Part shown: positions 28,167-61,020 of the stretch, in pieces
Layout: every line of letters starts with the position of its first letter
Position numbering within the stretch: position 1 is the first letter of the stretch
DNA from: Thermotoga profunda AZM34c06
Lineage (GTDB): Bacteria; Thermotogota; Thermotogae; Thermotogales; DSM-5069
NCBI RefSeq assembly: GCF_000828675.1
Contig: NZ_AP014510.1
Coordinates: 1,011,413 to 1,075,412, forward strand
Direction: 5' to 3'
Length of the DNA stretch: 64,000 nucleotides
Notes under the pieces: model-generated
What the model was told of the DNA's origin: nothing
What the model saw: the letters and a program-made list of their open reading frames with translations, nothing else
The model's database searches: none
Program-made: the position numbers and the translations under genes

Positions 28167-28910
28167 TCAGAAAATCTCAAAACCCGCAGATAAGTTGAAT
28201 TCTCCATTGTCAAGAAGCGTGCAGATTATATTATAACTACCTGGTTGAAGAGGTTCGTTAATTTCAACAACGGCAGCTGGATATGTAATGGCTTGTGTAA
28301 CAGGCGTTGAAGGCGAAGGTGATTGTACGTGAGCCTTTATTTGTATTGTCTTGTCGACCAAGTCAACAGAGTCTACAACTACTTCATAACCGCCTGTGTT
28401 TTTCCTACCGGCAGATATCATGATTAATATTTTTTCCCCTGCTTTGAAAGTCTGCGTCAAGACCATTTGGCTGTTCAGTACATCTAATGAAACTGAATCA
28501 CTTCCCCGCGTCGATTTAGTCTTGTAAGAAAAGCTACCAAAAGATATCTCATAACCACCAACAATAATTTTAGAAACTCCCTTAGGTAGAATTAGAAGGT
28601 GTTGAACCATGTAAGTATAAATTCCACTTTTCTTAGCTGGTAATTCTATCTCTCCATCAAAATCTTGAGCGATGACCCTGACTTTGAAAGATTTCGTTTC
28701 ACTAATCTGAACCGGCGTAAACAACCAACCTTTGAGCAGTAAAACGATCTGTTCAGATTTTGAAAGTATCATATACTGGAAATTTGCGGATTTTGAACCT
28801 ATTGACTGATAAAGCTCCTGTGGGAAAACAAACTCCACAGGTGTGTAGTAAATCATACCCGCCATATAGATCGCTCCAAGCAAAAGAATCGCACAAACAA
28901 GGGTTCGCAT
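28167..28910 (-). CDS. Membrane-anchored or exported protein with PrcB-like C-terminal domain
   Basis: A 247-residue protein. Residues 1-20 are a hydrophobic signal or anchor segment (RTLVCAILLLGAIYMAGMI), followed by an unrecognised beta-rich region. From about 155 it has a PrcB_C-like domain: ISAGRKNTGGYEVVVDSV, then IQIKAHVQSPSPSTPVTQA. PrcB domains are named for a spirochaete protease-complex component and are found in many exported proteins of unclear role. The ATG at 28910 after TGTGAGG is chosen over an in-frame start ten codons earlier that overlaps the upstream gene. It is co-directional with the UPF0173 gene (10 nt gap). Confidence 0.75.
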   Translation of the reverse strand: MRTLVCAILLLGAIYMAGMIYYTPVEFVFPQELYQSIGSKSANFQYMILSKSEQIVLLLKGWLFTPVQISETKSFKVRVIAQDFDGEIELPAKKSGIYTYMVQHLLILPKGVSKIIVGGYEISFGSFSYKTKSTRGSDSVSLDVLNSQMVLTQTFKAGEKILIMISAGRKNTGGYEVVVDSVDLVDKTIQIKAHVQSPSPSTPVTQAITYPAAVVEINEPLQPGSYNIICTLLDNGEFNLSAGFEIF

Positions 28911-28920
28911 CTTAATCGCC

Positions 28921-29604
28921 TCACAGTTCAATCGTCTCACCGGGTTCCATTACATGACATTTGATTTGTAATTTCTCGATTTCATGCTTGAATTTCTCTG
29001 GATCTGCCTTTATGAGCTCCCAAGTGTTGAAGTGTATTGGCACAACCAATTTAGGTTGAATCATCTTGACAGCTTCAACGGCATCCCAGAGATCCATCAC
29101 GAAGTTACCACCTATTGGGAGAAAGGCTGCGTCTATTTTTTCCTTTTGCAACAGCTCCATATCTTTTGTTAAACCCGTATCTCCTGCATGGTAGATCTTC
29201 TTGCCTTCGGCTTCAATCAAAAAACCACAAGGATTTCCCGCATAAACAGGTAATTCCTTCTCGATCAGGCTTGAGCCATGAAGTGCTGGTGTCAACTTCA
29301 CACTCCCGAATTCAAAGACATACTTCCCACCGATGTGCATGGGGTGAGTAACAATGCCATGTCGTGCTATGTAACTACACAGTTCGAAGTTAGCTATCAC
29401 AGTTGCTCCATCAGATTTTGCTATCTTTACGGTGTCTCCAAGATGATCTGCGTGACCGTGCGTGACCAGTATGTAATGTATCCTTGGCAGGTCTTGTAAT
29501 TTCACGGGACAACATGGATTTTCACTTATGAATGGATCGATTATCAGATTTTTTTCTTTGAGTTGAATCAAAACAGCTGCATGACCAAGATAACGAATTT
29601 TCAT
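28921..29604 (-). CDS. UPF0173-family metal-dependent hydrolase (metallo-beta-lactamase fold)
   Basis: A 227-residue cytoplasmic protein with the metallo-beta-lactamase motif THGHADH (48-54; H49, H51, D53, H54), HAGDTG further on, and VVPIHFNTW near the C-terminus. It matches the conserved UPF0173 group found in Thermotoga and many bacteria and archaea. The substrate is unknown; relatives include UlaG-like lactonases. The ATG follows GGAGGTGAATAAAG. Confidence 0.92.
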
Positions 29605-29709: not shown

Positions 29710-29738
29710 TTGACAGAACATTTTGTGCGGTGTATAAT
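29710..29738 (+). promoter_or_regulatory. Consensus promoter of the hydrolase-glpK-glpP operon
   Basis: TTGACA (29710-29715), 17-nt spacer, TATAAT (29733-29738): a perfect sigma-A promoter. So strong a promoter ahead of a terminator-bearing leader implies that control lies in the RNA and not at initiation. Confidence 0.9.
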
Positions 29739-29769: not shown

Positions 29770-29826
29770 ATGGTATGGTGGGAGAGCGGGAGAAAGCCAT
29801 ATCTCGATATGAGGTATGGCTTTTTT
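29770..29826 (+). promoter_or_regulatory. Candidate GlpP-responsive antiterminator leader (copy 1)
   Basis: The 110-nt leader holds GGTATGG (29772-29778), a purine-rich linker ending GGAGAAAG, and a 12-bp terminator stem. GGTATGG can pair with CCATATC (29797-29803), which is the 5' arm of the terminator, so the two folds exclude each other. The same design occurs before the glycerol-3-phosphate oxidoreductase operon. GlpP, encoded two genes downstream, is the expected protein partner. Confidence 0.75.
29794..29826 (+). terminator. Leader terminator upstream of the hydrolase-glpK-glpP operon
   Basis: AAGCCATATCTC pairs with GAGGTATGGCTT (12 bp including one T-G wobble) around GATAT and is followed by a T run to 29826. 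It lies between a perfect promoter and the first gene, so it must be read through for the operon to be expressed. Confidence 0.85.
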
Positions 29827-29855: not shown

Positions 29856-31652
29856 ATGCGTAAAGGTGCTGGCTGGGTGATTCTTTCACTTGTAATTGTT
29901 CTGGTTGGTGCATTGATTGCATTCTTTGTGCAAACAGATTTTGGGAAAGTCAAGGTCAAAGAACTGAGATTTGTAAGTAGCGATGGAAAGATTTTAAGTG
30001 CCTTGCTGTTCATTCCAAAAGGTGTCTCAGCGGAAAAACCTGCACCAGCTGTCTTAACGATGCATGGTTATATCAATTCGAGAGAGACACAGAGTGGTTT
30101 TAATATTGAATTTGCAAGACGTGGTTATGTGGTTATGGCTATGGACATGGCCGGCCACGGCTATTCTGAGCAAGTCAAAGGCGGACTTGCAAATCCTGCT
30201 CGTGGTGCAGATGCTGGATTACTGTATCTTGCAAGTCTTTCATTTGTCGACAAAAACAATATCGCAGTTGAAGGACATTCGATGGGTGGATGGTCTGTCC
30301 TGAGTGCTGCAGGTAAATATCCAGATCTTGTAAAAACGGTGATTTTAGAGGGTTCCTCCTCTGAAACATATGGCTCTCCAAAGGTAACTGCAGAAACTCC
30401 CTTCAATTTTGCAGTTGTGTTCAGTAAATATGATGAATTCAGCAGACTCATGTGGGGTGTGGAAATCCCATCCGACATAGTCAAGACGCAAAAACTCAAA
30501 GCTGCATTTGGTACCACAGAAGATGTCATACCCAAAAAACTTTATGGTTCATTTGAAAATGAGAGTGCAAGAAAATTATATATACCAAATTGCACGCATC
30601 CAGGAGATCATCTTTCAAAAGAAGCAATTGGATATGCAATAGAATTTTTGCAAGACTCGATAACACCACCCAAATTCATAGATCCAAATAACCAAATATG
30701 GCCTTGGAAAGAATTCGGAACATTATTGGCATTAATAGGTGGCATCATGTTCCTACTCAGTTATGGCTACTGTCTACTCAATAGCGCATATTTCTCATCT
30801 TTAAGAGGAAGAGTTGCTAATTTTAAGGATGTTAAAAAACCAGTAAGTATTATTGTCTGGCTTATTGGTTTTGCACTTGTAACTGCGATACCAGCTTTCA
30901 CATTTTTCAAATTTCAGCAACCTGGAGGCAAAACACCAACGGCTAATGCCTTTTGGCCACAGAGTTTGACCATAGGTTTTGCAAGATGGGCAACTTTTAA
31001 TGCACTCATAGCGATTGGTTTGTTCATCGTTTGGCATTTTGTATATCACCGCAGAATAGGTGGAAATCTGGTAACTTATGGTTTGGCAACAAATCATGAT
31101 AAGCCAAAATTCTCTTTAAAACAACTTTGGAAGGCTTTTGCTTTAGCTGTTTGTGTTGTCTTCACGACACACATAGTTTTGTCGGTTGTTCAATGGGCAT
31201 TCAAAGTAGATTTCAGATGGTGGGTTTTAGCGTTAAAACCAATGGACATAGCTCGATTCTGGATATTCATAAAATTCCTACCTCCGTTTGCTCTATTTAC
31301 ATTTGTCAACGCACTTGTTTTGAATGGTCAACTCAAGGCAAGAGAATTTAAAAATGAAGCCACATCAACTGCCGTATGGATGATCAGTTCAGCCCTTGCG
31401 AATTCTCTTGGTATAGCAATCTTGGTGGCATTGCAGGTTGGAAAACTATTTGCAACTCAAACACTGTTTTTCCCAACTCAATCGCTATTGGGAATAGTTG
31501 CATACCAATTTGTCTTTTTAACAGCCGTTTGCGGTGTATTTTCTTCTTTCTTCTATAGAAGAACTGGTAGCATATATGTTGGAGCCTTTATAAATGCCTT
31601 GTTTGTAACCTGGTACATCGTCGCAGGTCAAGCTATACAATTTGTCGCATAA
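29856..31652 (+). CDS. Alpha/beta hydrolase fused to a polytopic membrane domain
   Basis: A 598-residue protein. Residues 5-25 are an N-terminal anchor; about 35-270 is an alpha/beta hydrolase with HG (70-71), the nucleophile elbow GHSMGG (S142) and a likely catalytic His in CTHPGDH (H248 or H252). From about 285 there are roughly seven hydrophobic helices with no family I can name. The hydrolase domain probably faces the periplasm. Co-transcription with glpK and glpP under a candidate glycerol-3-phosphate-sensing leader suggests an esterase or lipase that frees glycerol from acylglycerols; this is inference. GAGGGAGGTG precedes the ATG. An upstream in-frame ATG at 29775 would read through the terminator and is not used here. 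Confidence 0.85.
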
Positions 31653-31665
31653 GGGGGTATCAAAG

Positions 31666-33165
31666 GTGGCTGAGAAGTATATTCTCGCATTAGACCAGGG
31701 AACAACCAGCTCAAGGGCGATAATTTTCGATCACAGTGGCAAAGTTATGTCTATGGTCAATCAAGAATTCGATCAGATATACCCAAGACCAGGTTGGGTA
31801 GAGCATGACCCTATGGATATCTTGGAATCACAGATAAGTGTTGCGAAAAAGGCTATGAGAAATAGTTCGATAGAACCACATCAAATTGCGGCAATAGGCA
31901 TAACCAATCAAAGAGAAACAACCATATTATGGGACAGGAAGACAGGTAAACCTGTATACAATGCGATAGTTTGGCAATGTAGAAGAACTGCAAATATCTG
32001 TGATGATTTGAAAAATCAGGGTTATGCTCAGAAAGTAAAAGAAAAAACTGGTTTAGTCATAGATGCGTACTTCTCGGCCACCAAATTGAAATGGCTCCTG
32101 GACAATGTAGAAGGCGCAAGGGAAAAAGCGAAAAAAGGAGAATTACTCTTTGGTACTGTTGATACCTGGCTCATTTGGAACCTAACTGGCGGGAAGGTTC
32201 ATGTAACAGACTACTCAAATGCGTCAAGAACAATGCTTTTCAATATAAACACATTAAACTGGGATGAAGAGTTGCTTGAATTATTTGATATACCAAAATC
32301 TGTCCTTCCTGAAGTTTGGCCATCGAGTTGTAAATATGGTTACACGAGTGATGAAATCTTTGGGGAAAAGATACCTATCTCTGGAGATGCGGGTGATCAA
32401 CAAGCGGCACTCTTTGGGCAGGTTTGTTGTGAACCAGGTATGGTGAAGAACACCTATGGTACAGGGTGCTTCATACTAATGAATACAGGTGAAAGACCTG
32501 TTCGTTCCCAATCTGGCCTTTTGACAACTATTGCTTGGGGATTGGAAGAGAAAAAGGTGTGTTATGCACTCGAAGGCAGCGTTTTTGTCGCAGGTGCTGC
32601 TATTCAATGGCTCAGAGACGGTATTAAATTGATTGAAAAGGCTTCAGATACGGAATATCTTGCATCGGCTGTTCCAGATTCTGCTGGTGTCTATTTTGTG
32701 CCTGCTTTCGTTGGTCTTGGTGCACCTTATTGGGACATGTATGCGCGTGGAACAATCGTGGGTATAACAAGAGGGACTTTGAAAGAGCATATCGTTCGCG
32801 CAACTCTTGAATCTATTGCCTATCAAACAAAAGACGTCGTTGATGTAATGTCGAGCGAGTCAAAGATTGAGCTTAGATCTCTGAGAGTAGATGGTGGCGC
32901 TTCTGTGAACAATTTTCTGATGCAATTTCAGTCAGATATACTCGGTGTGCCTGTCGAGAGACCAAAGGTAAACGAAACTACCGCACTTGGTGCAGCGTAT
33001 CTTGCTGGGTTAGCTACAGGCTATTGGCAAAATCACGATGAAATAAAGAGGCAGTGGCAACTTGACAGAAGATTCGAGCCGAGAATGAATTGTGAAGAAA
33101 GACAAAGGTTATACTCAGGATGGAAAAGAGCAGTCAAAAGGGCAACCAGGTGGGTTGAAGAATGA
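31666..33165 (+). CDS. glpK: Glycerol kinase
   Basis: A 499-residue FGGY-family kinase that makes sn-glycerol-3-phosphate from glycerol and ATP. Signatures are [16 protein letters not shown] at the N-terminus, [14 protein letters not shown] (glycerol-site Arg-Glu), the second-domain [17 protein letters not shown], and [10 protein letters not shown]. The start is GTG 8 nt after AAGGGGG; more upstream in-frame codons overlap the hydrolase gene. It overlaps glpP by 4 nt (ATGA). Confidence 0.96.
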
Positions 33166-33719
33166 TAAACTACTTTGAATTTCCAATAGTTCCTGCTATC
33201 AGAGAAGATACTTCAATACAAAAAGCACTTTCGTGTAAGGCAACCTCTGCCTTTTTATTAACAGGAGACATTATGGAACTTGGTCAAATCATACAACTCT
33301 TTCACAATAGTGGCAAATACGTCTTTGTGCACATAGATCTGGTTAAAGGACTTGGTAAAGATGAAGCCGCATTGAAATTTCTCAAAATTCAACTCAGAGC
33401 AGATGGTGTGATAACAACAAAAGGTAATCTCGTAACTTTTGCAAAGAAAATCGATCTTGTCCCCATTCAGAGAATCTTTCTTCTTGATTCTCAATCTCTT
33501 GTTACAGGCATCCAGCAAGCTAAATCACATACTCCAGATTACATAGAAGTATTACCGGGATTGTTACCCGATCTCATAAAGCAAATAAAAGATGAAACAA
33601 AGATTCCCGTCATAACAGGAGGACTCATAAAAACCTTAAATCAGGTTAAAGAAGCTTTGATTAAAGGTGCAACGGCAGTCTCAACCAGTGAAGAGTCACT
33701 GTGGAATATCTCGCTCTGA
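33162..33719 (+). CDS. glpP: GlpP, glycerol-3-phosphate-responsive antiterminator
   Basis: A 185-residue TIM-barrel-like RNA-binding regulator. The N-terminal [16 protein letters not shown], the [20 protein letters not shown] block and [20 protein letters not shown] are characteristic of GlpP. In Bacillus subtilis GlpP with bound glycerol-3-phosphate prevents termination in glp leaders. Here two terminator-bearing leaders of shared design lie within 7 kb (29770 and 36744). Expression from its own attenuated operon would give positive feedback. Its 3' end overlaps the convergent DUF1667 gene by 24 bp. Confidence 0.94.
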
Positions 33720-34076
33720 ATTTTTCAAAACGGTTCTCGTCGCGATGACGTCCACACCTGTATCAAAGATGTTTTTCAAGATAACGTCCCCAACTTTCAC
33801 GGGGGCGTTTACTTTTATCTCTCTGAGTTTTTTCATCAAATGTGGAATATACTTTTTGGGAATCGGTGCAGAGGTTTTGACTGATGCGAGTGGATAATTT
33901 CCTCCTACGACCCTGACACTTGTTGGAACAACTCTTTTTGGTTCTTTGAGTTCATCTTCGAGATATGCAAGGCCTCTTGGGCATTTGTTACCCTCTATTT
34001 TTACAATCTTTCCATCTATCAACTCGAATTTTATTTTACATCCCACAGGACATTGTACACAAACTACTCTATTCAT
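33696..34076 (-). CDS. DUF1667 protein, small Fe-S subunit of the glycerol-3-phosphate oxidoreductase unit
   Basis: A 126-residue protein. Four N-terminal cysteines (6, 9, 13, 32; CVQCPVGC then KCPRG) look like an iron-sulfur or zinc site, followed by a small beta-rich domain ending with VIATRTV. DUF1667 proteins are regularly encoded with two FAD oxidoreductases next to glycerol kinase in Thermotogales and Clostridia, so a role as an electron-transfer subunit is inferred. ATG 34076 is 8 nt after GGAGG. It is the third gene of the operon. Confidence 0.88.
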   Translation of the reverse strand: MNRVVCVQCPVGCKIKFELIDGKIVKIEGNKCPRGLAYLEDELKEPKRVVPTSVRVVGGNYPLASVKTSAPIPKKYIPHLMKKLREIKVNAPVKVGDVILKNIFDTGVDVIATRTVLKNSERDIPQ

Positions 34077-34079
34077 CAC

Positions 34080-35291
34080 TCATTCCTCCTTCAACGAAAC
34101 TACGATCTTATCCAACCCCGTTATTTTCTGAGAAGGAATTTTGATCCTGATCATCTCACTTGGCATTACATCTTCAAATTTTTTTTCGAAATTGCCTGCA
34201 GTTAGAATCGTTTTCTCCATGGGTTTTTTACTCCTCACATATAAAACTAAATCTTCACCACTCACATATCTTTTTGGAAAGATTATCCCAATATTATCTC
34301 CTGGTTCGATTGGTACACCCATTTCAAAACTTTCACCTTTTGCATACAAAGCTGCGTATTTACCTGCTTTTTCTCCTTCTATCGTTACGTAATCCACAAG
34401 ATCGTAGATCACCGTACAATTGCCCGCAGAAAAGATCCATTGGTTTGAACTTTGACCTATGTTAGAACACGAAATGCCTTTTGAGATACGATCCAGTTGT
34501 ACAAGATCGGCAAGTAATTCAACCTGTGGTATTAGTCCAACAGAGAGAACTAACGTATCGACTTTGAAAATTTTTTCTGTACCTGGTATTGGTTTGTAGT
34601 TTTGATCAACCTGTGCAACTACTACTTCTTCAAGCCTCTCTTTTCCTCTCACCTCAACAACTGTACTTGAAAGATACAAAGGTATATTGTAATCCTCAAG
34701 GCACTGTATGACATTTCTCAAAAGTCCACCAGAATAAGGCAATCTTTCTATCACTGCAACCACTTCAACGCCTTCAAGTGTCAGCCTTCGTGCCATGATC
34801 ATACCTATATCTCCTGAACCCAATATCAGAGCCCTTTTACCAATGAGTCTATTTTCTATATTCATGTACTTTTGTGCCACACCAGCTGTGAAGATCCCTG
34901 AAGGCCTATCGCCAGGAATCATCAAAGCTCCAAAGGGTCTTTCTCTCGCACCGGCTGTATAAACAATCGATCTTGTTTCGATCTCAAGGACACCTTTTGG
35001 AGAAACCAATATGGCTTTTCTGTCTGGTTTTACAGTATGAACATGGCAATCCATCAAAAGATCTATTTGGTAATTCTCAAGCAATGCAGAAAATCTCTCT
35101 GCATATTCTGGACCAGTCAGTTCTTCTTTAAAATAATGGAGCCCAAAGCCGTTGTGTATACACTGATTGAGAATTCCACCAGTCCTCTCATCTCTATCAA
35201 CAAGAGTTACTTTTACCCCATTTTTTGCCGCACTCAATGCTGCTGCCATCCCTGCAGCACCAGCACCGATCACAAGAACATCGGTTTTCAT
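34080..35291 (-). CDS. NAD(P)/FAD-dependent oxidoreductase, partner of the glycerol-3-phosphate dehydrogenase
   Basis: A 403-residue flavoprotein of the pyridine nucleotide-disulfide family. The first Rossmann loop is VLVIGAGAAGMAAALSAAKN, the NAD loop ALILGSGDIGMIMARRL, and the FAD-binding GNC near the end. No redox-active CxxC pair is seen. It starts with ATG inside the stop of the GlpA-like gene (ATGA) after GGAAGGTGAGAG; the longer open frame upstream overlaps that gene and is not used. With the GlpA-like subunit and DUF1667 it probably passes electrons from glycerol-3-phosphate to NAD or another carrier. Confidence 0.92.
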   Translation of the reverse strand: MKTDVLVIGAGAAGMAAALSAAKNGVKVTLVDRDERTGGILNQCIHNGFGLHYFKEELTGPEYAERFSALLENYQIDLLMDCHVHTVKPDRKAILVSPKGVLEIETRSIVYTAGARERPFGALMIPGDRPSGIFTAGVAQKYMNIENRLIGKRALILGSGDIGMIMARRLTLEGVEVVAVIERLPYSGGLLRNVIQCLEDYNIPLYLSSTVVEVRGKERLEEVVVAQVDQNYKPIPGTEKIFKVDTLVLSVGLIPQVELLADLVQLDRISKGISCSNIGQSSNQWIFSAGNCTVIYDLVDYVTIEGEKAGKYAALYAKGESFEMGVPIEPGDNIGIIFPKRYVSGEDLVLYVRSKKPMEKTILTAGNFEKKFEDVMPSEMIRIKIPSQKITGLDKIVVSLKEE

Positions 35292-36727
35292 TCTCTCACC
35301 TTCCCATCGACGATCCAACTTTGAGGTGATTTGAGAACAATCTCTGACATATCTAACTTGAGCTCTCTTTCGAGAATCTTCATGATTTTTATAGAGCAAA
35401 AACCACCCTGACATCTCCCAAACATCGCTCTTGTTCGGAATTTTATGCCATCAAGTGACCGTGCACCCCTTCTTATTGCTTCGATTATCTCCGCTTCCGT
35501 GACTTCATTGCAATAACAGATTAATCTACCTGCCGCGGGATCTTTTTTGACAAGTTCTTGCCATTCTTCTAATGGAAGCTCAACGATTTTCTTTATACCT
35601 TTTCTAATGGGGTTGAAATCTTTCTTTGGAAATAATTTCAAACCAAGCTCTTTTTGAATGATCTCTTCTGTCAAATACTCCGCAATCGCTGGAGCAGCGG
35701 TCAAGCCAGGTGATCTCATCGCCATCAGGTTCACAAAATTTTTAACAATCTTGCTCGCCCCTATGAAGAAATCTTTTTGAGGACTTTCGGGTCTAAGACC
35801 ACAAAAAGTTTTAACAGTTTGAGAAAAGTCTAATGATGGAACAAGAGTCTTTGTAAAATTCCTTATCTGTTCCAATCCTTCTTGTGTTGTTTCGAAATGA
35901 TTTTTCATCTCACTTGGTAAGTCAGTTGCTGTAGGTCCAAGCAATAAACCACCATCTATAGTTGGTAAAACCAATATTCCCTTCGATGTTTTAGTAGGTG
36001 TCGGGAAGATGATAGATTTAACGGTCGAGCCTACTTTTTTGTCCAAAAGGATATACTCGCCACGTCTTGGGTGCAATGGTACATACTCTGCCCCGGCAAG
36101 AATGGCTATCTGGTCTGCAAAAAGTCCAGCTGCATTTATCACAATATCCGCTTGATAGGAATTTTTGTCGGTGATGACCTTTTTGATTCTGTCATTTTCT
36201 TTCTCAAAACCTATCACTTTCTCGTTTAAAACAATTTTTGCGCCATTTGCTACAGCATTTTCAACGGCTGCTATCGCAACCATCCAAGGCTCTGTTATAC
36301 CTGCAGTTGGTGCCCAAAGCCCACATTTTACCTCTTTGTTTAAATTCGGCTCTTTCTCAAGTAAGGTACTCCTATCGTGAATTTCCAAACCCGGTACCCC
36401 GTTGACTTTCCCTTGCTCATACAGTTCTTCAATAGTTTTAACCTCTTCATCGCTGAAGGCAACTACATATGAACCTATTCTCTTTATCTCAAAATCCAAC
36501 TCTTGCGAAAGTAGAGTGTACATGGTGTTTCCTTTTGAACAGAATTTTGAACGATTAGAACCAACAGGATCATCATAGCCAGCGTGAAGTATGGCTGAAT
36601 TTGCCTTCGTAACTCCCCAGCCAATATCGAGATTTTTCTCAATTATGGTTAAATCAAGATCGTACTTAGAAAGCTCCCTCGCAGCTAAACTTCCAACAAC
36701 ACCTGCACCGATTATGACAACTTTCAT
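35288..36727 (-). CDS. GlpA-like FAD-dependent glycerol-3-phosphate dehydrogenase with [2Fe-2S] BFD domain
   Basis: A 479-residue flavoprotein. The FAD-binding VVIIGAGVVGSLAARELSKY is at residues 3-22, the DAO-type core contains TKANSAILHAGY and CGLRPESPQKDFFIG, and residues 400-450 hold a BFD-like ferredoxin domain with Cys404, 406, 439 and 444 (CYCNEVT, CQGGFC). It matches the type-2 GlpA family that oxidises glycerol-3-phosphate to dihydroxyacetone phosphate. It is the first gene of a three-gene operon and sits behind the second candidate GlpP leader. GGAGGTGCTTGA precedes the ATG. Electron acceptor not known. Confidence 0.92.
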   Translation of the reverse strand: MKVVIIGAGVVGSLAARELSKYDLDLTIIEKNLDIGWGVTKANSAILHAGYDDPVGSNRSKFCSKGNTMYTLLSQELDFEIKRIGSYVVAFSDEEVKTIEELYEQGKVNGVPGLEIHDRSTLLEKEPNLNKEVKCGLWAPTAGITEPWMVAIAAVENAVANGAKIVLNEKVIGFEKENDRIKKVITDKNSYQADIVINAAGLFADQIAILAGAEYVPLHPRRGEYILLDKKVGSTVKSIIFPTPTKTSKGILVLPTIDGGLLLGPTATDLPSEMKNHFETTQEGLEQIRNFTKTLVPSLDFSQTVKTFCGLRPESPQKDFFIGASKIVKNFVNLMAMRSPGLTAAPAIAEYLTEEIIQKELGLKLFPKKDFNPIRKGIKKIVELPLEEWQELVKKDPAAGRLICYCNEVTEAEIIEAIRRGARSLDGIKFRTRAMFGRCQGGFCSIKIMKILERELKLDMSEIVLKSPQSWIVDGKVRE

Positions 36728-36743: not shown

Positions 36744-36775
36744 AAAAAAGCCACACCCCAAAAGGGATGTGGCTT
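36744..36775 (-). terminator. Leader terminator of the GlpA-like operon
   Basis: On the minus strand AAGCCACATCCC pairs with GGGGTGTGGCTT (12 bp with one U-G wobble) around TTTT, followed by a T run. It lies 17 nt before the first gene and within the transcript leader. The wobble is at the same pair as in the copy at 29794. Confidence 0.85.
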
Positions 36776-36799
36776 TCTCCAGGACTCATACCACACCAT
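36744..36799 (-). promoter_or_regulatory. Candidate GlpP-responsive antiterminator leader (copy 2)
   Basis: GGTGTGG (forward 36791-36797) can pair with CCACATC (forward 36766-36772), the 5' arm of the terminator. Between them the linker ends in GGAGAAAG as in copy 1. Over the shared 34-nt block 27 positions agree, and the A-to-G change in one strand of the antiterminator is matched by T-to-C in the other. This covariation supports a real alternative helix. Confidence 0.75.
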
Positions 36800-37679: not shown

Positions 37680-38447
37680 GTGAATTTAGATATATACAAC
37701 CAAGATATTCGTTTGATCGATCCTATATGTTCTCCTGTTTTCAAAGTAAATGGTAAGCGGGGTGTACTTTTGATTCATGGTTTCACAGGAAGTCCACATG
37801 ACATGGCTTATGTTGCCGAAAGGCTTTTCAGTGAAGGATTCACCGTATCCGTTCCGCGACTTCCTGGGCATGGTACGAATCACAAAGATTTTTTGAACTC
37901 AACTTGGAGAGACTGGGTTAGAAGGTCAATAGATGCCTATCTTGATCTAACCAATTTTTGTGATGAAATAAACGTTGTTGGTCTTTCGATGGGGGCACTT
38001 CTTGCTACTGTTGTAACATCGAGCTTCAAAGCCAAGAAACTCGTCTTAGCAGCTCCTGCTTTCAAGGTAACAGACTGGCGGCTGAAATTCACTCCTTTGA
38101 TGAGTTTGTTTGTGCAGTACAGAGAAAAAGAACCACCAGTTTTTGATGATCCTTCATTGAATAAACTGGCTCAGGAGTATTGGAATAAGGTTTTCATCAA
38201 ACCCGCTGCTCAATTGTATAAGTTGCAAAAGATTGCTATCAAGAGCTTGGAGAAAGTTGAATCTTCCACATTAGTCATAGTTACTCAAAAAGACAACACC
38301 GTCCCATTATCTGTCTTGGATGTGATAAGAGAACACTTAAAGTCTGAGTTCAAGACGGTTGTTCTTGAAAAAAGTGCACATCCTGTGACGAATGATGTAG
38401 AAAAAGAACTTGTCGCTGAAAAGATCGTAGAGTTTCTCTCTAATTGA
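37680..38447 (+). CDS. Carboxylesterase, alpha/beta hydrolase fold (Est30-like)
   Basis: A 255-residue cytoplasmic hydrolase. The oxyanion region is LLIHGFTGSPHDM, the nucleophile elbow GLSMGALL, the acid in VTQKDNTVPL and the base in KSAHPVTND. This triad arrangement and length are those of thermostable Est30-type carboxylesterases that cleave short-chain esters. It starts at GTG after AGGGTGATG. A TATAAT at 37657-37662 gives a weak promoter candidate just upstream. Natural substrate unknown. Confidence 0.9.
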   Translation: MNLDIYNQDIRLIDPICSPVFKVNGKRGVLLIHGFTGSPHDMAYVAERLFSEGFTVSVPRLPGHGTNHKDFLNSTWRDWVRRSIDAYLDLTNFCDEINVVGLSMGALLATVVTSSFKAKKLVLAAPAFKVTDWRLKFTPLMSLFVQYREKEPPVFDDPSLNKLAQEYWNKVFIKPAAQLYKLQKIAIKSLEKVESSTLVIVTQKDNTVPLSVLDVIREHLKSEFKTVVLEKSAHPVTNDVEKELVAEKIVEFLSN

Positions 38448-59574: not shown

Positions 59575-60815
59575 ATAAAAAGACAATTCTAATAGTCATA
59601 ACAATAGTTGTATTATCTTATATCGTTACTTCAGCTGGATTCTGGCTTGTTGAAAATACTTTTAGCATAGCTGGAAGGGTTTTCTTATATGAATCACACC
59701 GCAAGCTTATCGAAGGTAAGGGTCCTGCTCCAAATCAGTACAGATATGCTCCTTATCTTTTGGTAGAGTACTTTTTCAAATACATTCCTTTGAGATGGTA
59801 TTGCAATACTTATATAAAATTAGAGCGGTGGCTTGGTTTTGATAAGCGTGCATTTGTTCAAAAAGAAAATGAATTGAATCTGAATGCCCATATCTCAGCT
59901 GAAGAAAGAGAAAAAATAATTGAAGATTTGGAATCCTTTATAAAGGACAAATTGCTTGAGATAACCAAAAATCCATTAACGACAAATCTTATTGTCAATG
60001 TTGTGAACAATTTTGGATGGAAGGAGTGGATAGAAGATCCATTTACTTTCCTACAGCAATTTTCCCAGCAGATGCCTGATAATATAAAGGATATTTTTGA
60101 TAAGAAGAGTGACTTAACCAAGATCATCAATGGATATGCGAATATGAGATTCACATTCACAATAATAATCCTTTTGTTTTTGTATTTATGGATGAGAATT
60201 TTCACAAACGAATTTGTTTCTTACGTTTCACTCTTCGCATACTCCATTTTTATCGTATTTAGTTATGGTGATTTTGGACAACAAGAATTTCTCATCTCTG
60301 TGGCACTTTTCATTGCTGGCATAACCCTAATTTATCGAAAAAAACCTTGGTGGATGATCCTTGTTCTCATTTCGTTAGAGTGTTTTGTCCGAACAGATCA
60401 TGCACTATTCATAGCTGTGATATACAGTTTATATAATTTACCATTGAATAGAAAAAAATTGTCCTTACATGGTATATTATTTTTCATACCAATTTTTGCA
60501 ACGTATTTGCTTGCCAAGGTCTTTTTTCCTAATGCCGTTTACTACACATTACCATTCATACTCGAAGAAAACCTACAAGACCCTTGGGCTATAGTCTATC
60601 CTACGGTTTTTTTCGTTTTACCATTGCTTTTTATCAAGAAATTTGGAGAATACGAGTTTTATAAGAAAACATGGTTGTGGATGATACCATTTGTCGCGTT
60701 GAATTTGATGATGGGAGCGGTACGAGAGATCAGGCTTTTTCTTCCTTTAATGGCATATCTATTCCCAGTGTTGTTCACAGGAATAGTTTCGTTGTATAAT
60801 ACAAACGAAAACTGA
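59571..60815 (+). CDS. Polytopic membrane protein of unknown function (last gene of UbiA cassette)
   Basis: A 414-residue protein with one N-terminal helix, a long extracytoplasmic region (about 30-190) rich in Glu/Lys, then about eight helices to the C-terminus. The layout (helix, soluble loop, many helices) and an acidic-residue-rich loop recall GT-C glycosyltransferases, but no motif proves this. The start is GTG after GGGAGG, overlapping the DUF362 stop (GTGA). Its 3' end holds the promoter of the downstream riboswitch. Confidence 0.8.
   Translation: MNKKTILIVITIVVLSYIVTSAGFWLVENTFSIAGRVFLYESHRKLIEGKGPAPNQYRYAPYLLVEYFFKYIPLRWYCNTYIKLERWLGFDKRAFVQKENELNLNAHISAEEREKIIEDLESFIKDKLLEITKNPLTTNLIVNVVNNFGWKEWIEDPFTFLQQFSQQMPDNIKDIFDKKSDLTKIINGYANMRFTFTIIILLFLYLWMRIFTNEFVSYVSLFAYSIFIVFSYGDFGQQEFLISVALFIAGITLIYRKKPWWMILVLISLECFVRTDHALFIAVIYSLYNLPLNRKKLSLHGILFFIPIFATYLLAKVFFPNAVYYTLPFILEENLQDPWAIVYPTVFFVLPLLFIKKFGEYEFYKKTWLWMIPFVALNLMMGAVREIRLFLPLMAYLFPVLFTGIVSLYNTNEN
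60771..60800 (+). promoter_or_regulatory. Candidate promoter of the cobalamin-importer operon
   Basis: TATAAT at 60795-60800 with TTGTTC (60771-60776, 18 nt) or TTCACA (60774-60779, 15 nt) as -35, inside the end of the preceding gene. The start would be about 20 nt before the riboswitch. Confidence 0.5.
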
Positions 60816-60825
60816 ATAAGAGGCG

Positions 60826-60981
60826 TCAGAGGGTACCAAGAAGGTTTAATAGGGAAGCCGGTGAAAATCCGGCACGGGGACGCCACCGTGACTGGGGACG
60901 AAACCCACAAAAACCACTGGCACATTGCTGGGAAGGTGTGGGGAGTAGGAAGATCCAGAAGTCGGGAGACCTGCCCTTTGA
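60826..60981 (+). ncRNA. Cobalamin (AdoCbl) riboswitch aptamer
   Basis: Closing helix P1 forms from TCAGAGGG (60826-60833) and CCCTTTGA (60974-60981). Conserved blocks present are GGGAAGCCGGTGAAAATCCG and the following CGCCACCGTGA, the GGGAAGG core and the B12 box (GTCGGGAGACCTGCC). It senses cobalamin and, as expected, sits directly upstream of a BtuFCD importer. The class (with J6/3 GGA-type core) fits AdoCbl riboswitches. Confidence 0.95.
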
Positions 60982-60987
60982 TTGAAA

Positions 60988-61020
60988 TCACCACTTTCTT
61001 CGACACCAAGAAGGTGGTGA
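60988..61020 (+). promoter_or_regulatory. Expression-platform hairpin of the cobalamin riboswitch
   Basis: TCACCACTTTCTT pairs with AAGAAGGTGGTGA over 13 bp (one wobble) around CGACACC. The loop ACACC is complementary to GGTGT at 60935-60939, so a kissing-loop contact with the aptamer is possible. No T run follows, and the ribosome site AAGGAGG at 61035 lies 14 nt further on, so control of translation is more likely than termination. Confidence 0.65.

Follow-up and report, generated by a model that had tools for sequence, protein, structure and literature searches.

A membrane alpha/beta hydrolase of Thermotogota as a probable member of the GlpP antitermination regulon

In the genome of the thermophile Thermotoga profunda AZM34c06, a gene for a membrane-bound alpha/beta hydrolase lies directly ahead of the glycerol kinase gene glpK, which raises the question of whether a membrane hydrolase takes part in glycerol catabolism and on which substrate it would act. 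The locus falls within the window, a 64-kb stretch of the 2.19-Mb single-contig genome, whose closest named relative was an uncultured Pseudothermotoga (90% protein identity). The preliminary description had placed the hydrolase first in a hydrolase-glpK-glpP operon, and this arrangement was borne out (Table 1). All three genes are on the same strand, glpK follows 13 bases past the hydrolase stop with GTG as its probable start, glpP overlaps glpK, and a terminator scan listed no site between them. The hydrolase reading frame begins with ATG behind a strong ribosome site. Elsewhere in the window, a PrcB C-terminal domain protein is encoded at 28167-28940 (-), adjoining the hydrolase locus in genomes G001-G003 too, and a cobalamin riboswitch lies at 60814-60992 (+, 107 bits).

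Table 1 Features of the hydrolase-glpK-glpP locus and the convergent glpA-like operon (window coordinates)
Feature	Position	Strand	Basis
Sigma-70-type promoter, TTGACA-17-TATAAT	29710..29738	+	12/12 consensus positions
Proposed antiterminator hairpin, arm 1, GGTATGG	29772..29778	+	Pairing count in 35 leaders; nascent fold
Loop with two GGAGA-type boxes, putative GlpP contact	29780..29793	+	Most conserved unpaired stretch of leader alignment
Leader terminator (arm 2, loop, arm 3, T run)	29793..29826	+	Folds and alignment pairing
Membrane alpha/beta hydrolase, 598 aa; S142, candidates D193 and H248/H252; nine predicted helices	29856..31652	+	
glpK, glycerol kinase	31666..33165	+	NCBIfam TIGR01311, 781 bits; start chosen by eye
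glpP, glycerol-3-phosphate responsive antiterminator	33162..33719	+	PF04309, 212.5 bits
DUF1667 protein of glpA-like operon	33696..34079	-	
Second FAD oxidoreductase of glpA-like operon	34080..35294	-	
glpA-like FAD oxidoreductase, Fer2_BFD domain	35288..36727	-	Best NCBIfam match type 2 G3P oxidase, under cut-off
Leader element copy 2, upstream of glpA-like operon	36744..36797	-	

The GHSMGG elbow noted earlier was found intact at residues 140-145, with S142 as the nucleophile. Hydrolase_4 was the best Pfam fit (46.5 bits against a cut-off of 27), and Abhydrolase_1 likewise scored above its cut-off. S142, D193, H248 and H252 were invariant in an alignment of 13 diverse members. With its GxSxG elbow and conserved acid and histidine, the membrane protein belongs to the serine alpha/beta hydrolase superfamily; D193 and H248/H252 are candidates for the acting acid and histidine, judging from the alignment. 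The Hydrolase_4 assignment and the elbow are shared with monoacylglycerol lipases, and GHSMGG itself also occurs in human MGLL, whereas the hydrolase studied here is fused to an eight-helix membrane part. Its best solved-structure matches were feruloyl and cinnamoyl esterases, MHETase and acetyl xylan esterase, and the solved esterases resembled it over about 130 residues only. No chain named monoacylglycerol lipase occurred among all 42 matches of one list or the best 60 of 77 in a second, so that full-length similarity to such lipases was not found among these matches. A second, soluble alpha/beta hydrolase of 255 aa is encoded near the glp cluster at 37680-38447 (+). This protein, which is nearer to the monoacylglycerol lipases than the membrane hydrolase is, matched thermostable enzymes of that kind over almost its full length (best E 5.6e-28), making it a candidate cytoplasmic monoacylglycerol lipase by sequence; its position beside glp was not seen in the relatives whose neighbourhoods were compared.

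The membrane portion was described less accurately at the outset. The N-terminal anchor was recovered as a hydrophobic segment at residues 7-25, but the proposed seven-helix domain gave eight C-terminal hydropathy peaks (residues 290-591), and eight helices also appeared in a low-confidence AF2 model built from three close sequences (window, L002 and L003; mean pLDDT 41.5). The claim that this domain has no recognised family stood, with no Pfam match at E 0.01 in the 10 members scanned. The 13 members analysed fell into a short form (seven members, eight C-terminal helices) and a longer one (six members, ten helices); four of the long proteins also had a borderline peak (1.25-1.39) within the hydrolase part, which was not counted as a helix. 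In the window protein, lysine and arginine were concentrated in the short loops on the N-terminal side (18 vs 8). Because of this charge pattern and the positive-inside rule, the hydrolase part is predicted to face outward, outside the membrane. D452, R454 and W456, in a predicted outer loop, were likewise identical in all 13. No copy of the membrane part lacking the hydrolase turned up in 103 Thermotogota genomes, apart from one 55-residue match (E 8e-5) and a contig-end fragment in G015. Neither the MIP/GlpF profile nor any other transporter profile matched it by Pfam scan or hhalign. A CPBP/Rce1 (PF02517) origin, prompted by eye from a TGxxY..AFxN motif near the end, was also considered and rejected: hhalign with 15 and then 13 members gave scores no better than reversed controls, the EExxxR motif of CPBP/Rce1 proteins was absent from the 13 aligned members, and no Pfam match to the membrane part was obtained.

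To survey the distribution of the family, a profile search of the 103 genomes was performed, yielding 19 full-length members (E below 1e-200). The next gene was glpK in nine carriers (G000, G001, G002, G003, G006, G020, G044, G095 and G097) and a glpA-like gene in four (G030, G060, G085 and G086), whereas the hydrolase was unlinked in the remaining six (G005, G007, G008, G009, G024 and G028). Linkage to glp genes, expected from the initial reading, was thus present in 13 of 19 carriers and in Deinococcus ficus but was not constant, being absent in the six; a complete lack of such linkage elsewhere, named at the outset as grounds for refutation, was not what the survey showed. Since the linked members from other families mostly shared 27-29% identity with the window protein (59% for G086), the linkage reflects more than recent inheritance. 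All 19 carriers encoded GlpK above the cut-off together with GlpP, the latter being present in 79 of the 103 genomes. These counts leave out eleven f11 matches confined to the hydrolase region, eleven Bacteroidota loci whose similarity ended at residue 167, and a G015 match of 54 residues at a contig end; L058, a peptidase-type protein, was left out of later alignments. In the G015 case (L057 11462-11626, G015:C11:71461-71625, family f2), the contig ends in the last 54 hydrolase residues at 89% identity, which suggests recent transfer or contamination. In G010, a leader element (L215 9-74, G010:C170) points to the contig end, and the adjoining frames match in length those upstream of the hydrolase in L048; for this reason its hydrolase probably sits in an assembly gap.

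Outside Thermotogota, a tblastn search of the membrane part against plasmids returned four records. Deinococcus ficus had the order hydrolase-glpK-glpD, the last encoding glycerol-3-phosphate dehydrogenase, and in Jeotgalibaca the hydrolase lay between gldA-dhaKLM and glpK with transposases intervening; the neighbouring stretches shown for the Haloarcula and Maritalea homologues contained no glycerol genes. In a gut clone recorded as an unverified phage, the hydrolase was accompanied by a PocR/AraC-type regulator and by the beginning of a GlpK-like frame, for which the FGGY match fell under the cut-off. No hydrolase relatives were found in the viral contigs searched. Altogether, the fused family was found in four bacterial phyla and one archaeon.

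The region between promoter and hydrolase points to how these genes are controlled. After the promoter, the leader folds into a terminator (z -3.07), which a simple terminator scan did not list; TTGACA-like boxes precede the hydrolase in close relatives too. The convergent glpA-like operon carries a near-identical leader, and a strict leader pattern occurred at exactly these two sites in the genome and was absent from the control. In an alignment of 35 leaders, some rows of which appeared by eye to be out of register, 96.8% of the terminator cells were paired and eight of 13 pairs had changed on both sides. An upstream hairpin of 7 bp, mutually exclusive with the terminator, was paired in 79.0% of cells, compared with 30-58% when slid, and both partners had changed in 21 cells (3.8 in shuffles), although two of five antiterminator measures were not above shuffles (171 and 222 of 500). 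When six leaders were folded, the part before arm 3 formed the upstream hairpin and the whole leader the terminator. Ahead of the hydrolase, the promoter is followed by a terminator of the conditional type, with which an alternative hairpin competes. No Rfam family matched it at the gathering score.

A covariance model of this element, R1, matched 82 of the 103 genomes at E 0.01 or less. T. profunda had three sites: before the hydrolase, before the glpA-like operon, and before a ugpB/ugpA-like operon, whose ugpB-like protein reached 257 bits with the UgpB model, under its cut-off of 411. The third leader, at L203 5650-5715, is followed by the ugpB-like ABC operon and then, at L203 9025-11037, by a dCache-domain chemoreceptor with a possible role in chemotaxis to glycerol-3-phosphate (G3P) or glycerol compounds. 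Upstream of the hydrolase, R1 was found in 16 of 19 carriers (exceptions G024, G060 and G085), 10 of these 16 leaders having been in its training alignment; the likely glycerol control proposed at the start gained support from this GlpP-type leader. Five of the six unlinked carriers (G005, G007, G008, G009 and G028) kept the leader, while G024 was both unlinked and lacked a recognisable one. By counts read by hand from related, non-independent genomes, R1 occurred in 73 of 79 GlpP-positive and nine of 24 GlpP-negative genomes, and at E 1e-6 or less in 61 of 79 against one of 24, that one being a 71%-complete genome. The discordant cases comprised six GlpP-positive genomes without R1 and nine GlpP-negative genomes with it, mostly as weak matches. 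G050 and G087-G092 (genus g20) showed weak R1 matches without GlpP, which may be terminators matched by chance or signs of a different use of the element.

Glatz 1996 and Glatz 1998 are reportedly works on GlpP antitermination in Bacillus subtilis. There, control of glpD, glpFK and glpT by this mechanism is established, according to PMC9604022, which describes GlpP, a promoter, a GlpP site and an inherent terminator in the 5' UTR; the system presented here has the same parts, its GlpP site being putative. Because GlpP controls these genes in B. subtilis, the leader element is read as its target, and by analogy GlpP may bind it with the loop boxes as contact. In a Cytobacillus plasmid (Bacillales), R1 gave weak matches (E 0.031 and 0.5 in 127 kb), one in the glpP-glpFK interval and the other ahead of glpD, where the GAGA boxes were the same and the element was degenerate; among seven other loci in that search, Paenibacillus L232 scored better (E 0.00022). 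With considerable confidence, we assign the hydrolase to the GlpP antitermination regulon, a membership that very probably extends to the five genomes where it is unlinked and keeps the leader.

These results can be combined into a working model. Transcripts from the promoter would end at the leader terminator by default, whereas GlpP with G3P would hold the alternative hairpin with its two GGAGA-type loop boxes, allowing read-through and joint production of the hydrolase, GlpK and GlpP. Anchored by an N-terminal helix and eight further helices in its C-terminal part, the serine hydrolase would sit at the outside of the cytoplasmic membrane and cleave glycerol esters (mono-/diacylglycerols or lysolipids) there; the released glycerol would enter the cell, be phosphorylated by GlpK and be oxidised by the glpA-like complex. 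The computed basis comprises gene order, leader anatomy with covariation, regulon content, conserved catalytic residues and charge pattern; the catalysis and the route of glycerol entry are proposed, and family and context point to an acylglycerol substrate. The preferred functional reading, in which we place middling confidence, is that glycerol esters are hydrolysed on the outer face, and the overall account of an outward-facing, GlpP-controlled membrane hydrolase of such esters has a chance of about one half.

Two other substrate classes were weighed against it. The hydrolase could instead deacylate the cell's own or scavenged (lyso)phospholipids, with free glycerol not the main product and the glycerophosphodiesters or G3P being taken over by two other products of the regulon, the ugpB-like ABC transporter and the glpA-like complex. 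The third leader before the ugpB/ugpA-like operon and the glpA-like gene next to the hydrolase in four of 19 carriers favour such lipid turnover, as does the phospholipase B activity reported from Thermotoga lettingae in PMC4613230. However, glpK is the commonest neighbour (9/19), GlpK is present in all carriers and D. ficus also pairs the hydrolase with glpK, which leaves this account unlikely, if worth keeping in view. Somewhat less probable still is an esterase that acts on another class of acylated or glycerol-containing compounds (feruloyl or short-chain esters, acetylated polyols) and was brought into the regulon since glycerol is one product. The varied substrates of the best solved-structure matches agree with it, but soluble esters would not need an eight-helix membrane part, and the setting is one of glycerol catabolism, not of polysaccharide use.

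The membrane part might also stand in for GlpF as a channel or carrier for glycerol, fed by the hydrolase part. It occupies the same slot before glpK as the MIP protein GlpF of Thermotoga-type glp operons does in G021 and G094, although it has no sequence similarity to GlpF. In genus g36, the slot before glpK-glpA holds MIP in G094, the hydrolase in G095 and G097, and other genes in G096 and G098; the order is MIP-glpK-glpP in G021, and MIP follows glpK in G032 and G036. The search for MIP proteins was negative in the T. profunda genome and in all 19 carriers, and the membrane part, with its invariant residues, was never found as a full domain without the hydrolase. Nevertheless, MIP occurred in only seven of 103 genomes, exclusivity by presence and absence alone was not significant (chance probability of non-overlap 0.23), no transporter profile resembled the membrane part, and glycerol also crosses membranes unaided. 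The channel or carrier is accordingly improbable. The same low standing applies to a one-protein glycerol intake module, in which an outward-facing esterase, joined to a novel channel or carrier in place of GlpF, would release glycerol from lipids and move it directly towards GlpK; if true, it would be in use in Thermotogota, Deinococcota and Bacillota.

The mechanism classes involved are already known. In contrast to the B. subtilis system, the regulon belongs to another phylum and takes in a ugpB-like operon as well as a membrane hydrolase. No description of the hydrolase family, the leader element or a Thermotogota GlpP regulon was found in the literature searched, which mostly lay outside subscription papers. 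The recurrence of this gene pair in unrelated bacteria makes the role of the enzyme directly testable. The analysis ties an uncharacterised family of fused membrane hydrolases to glycerol catabolism and provides a clear substrate class to assay.
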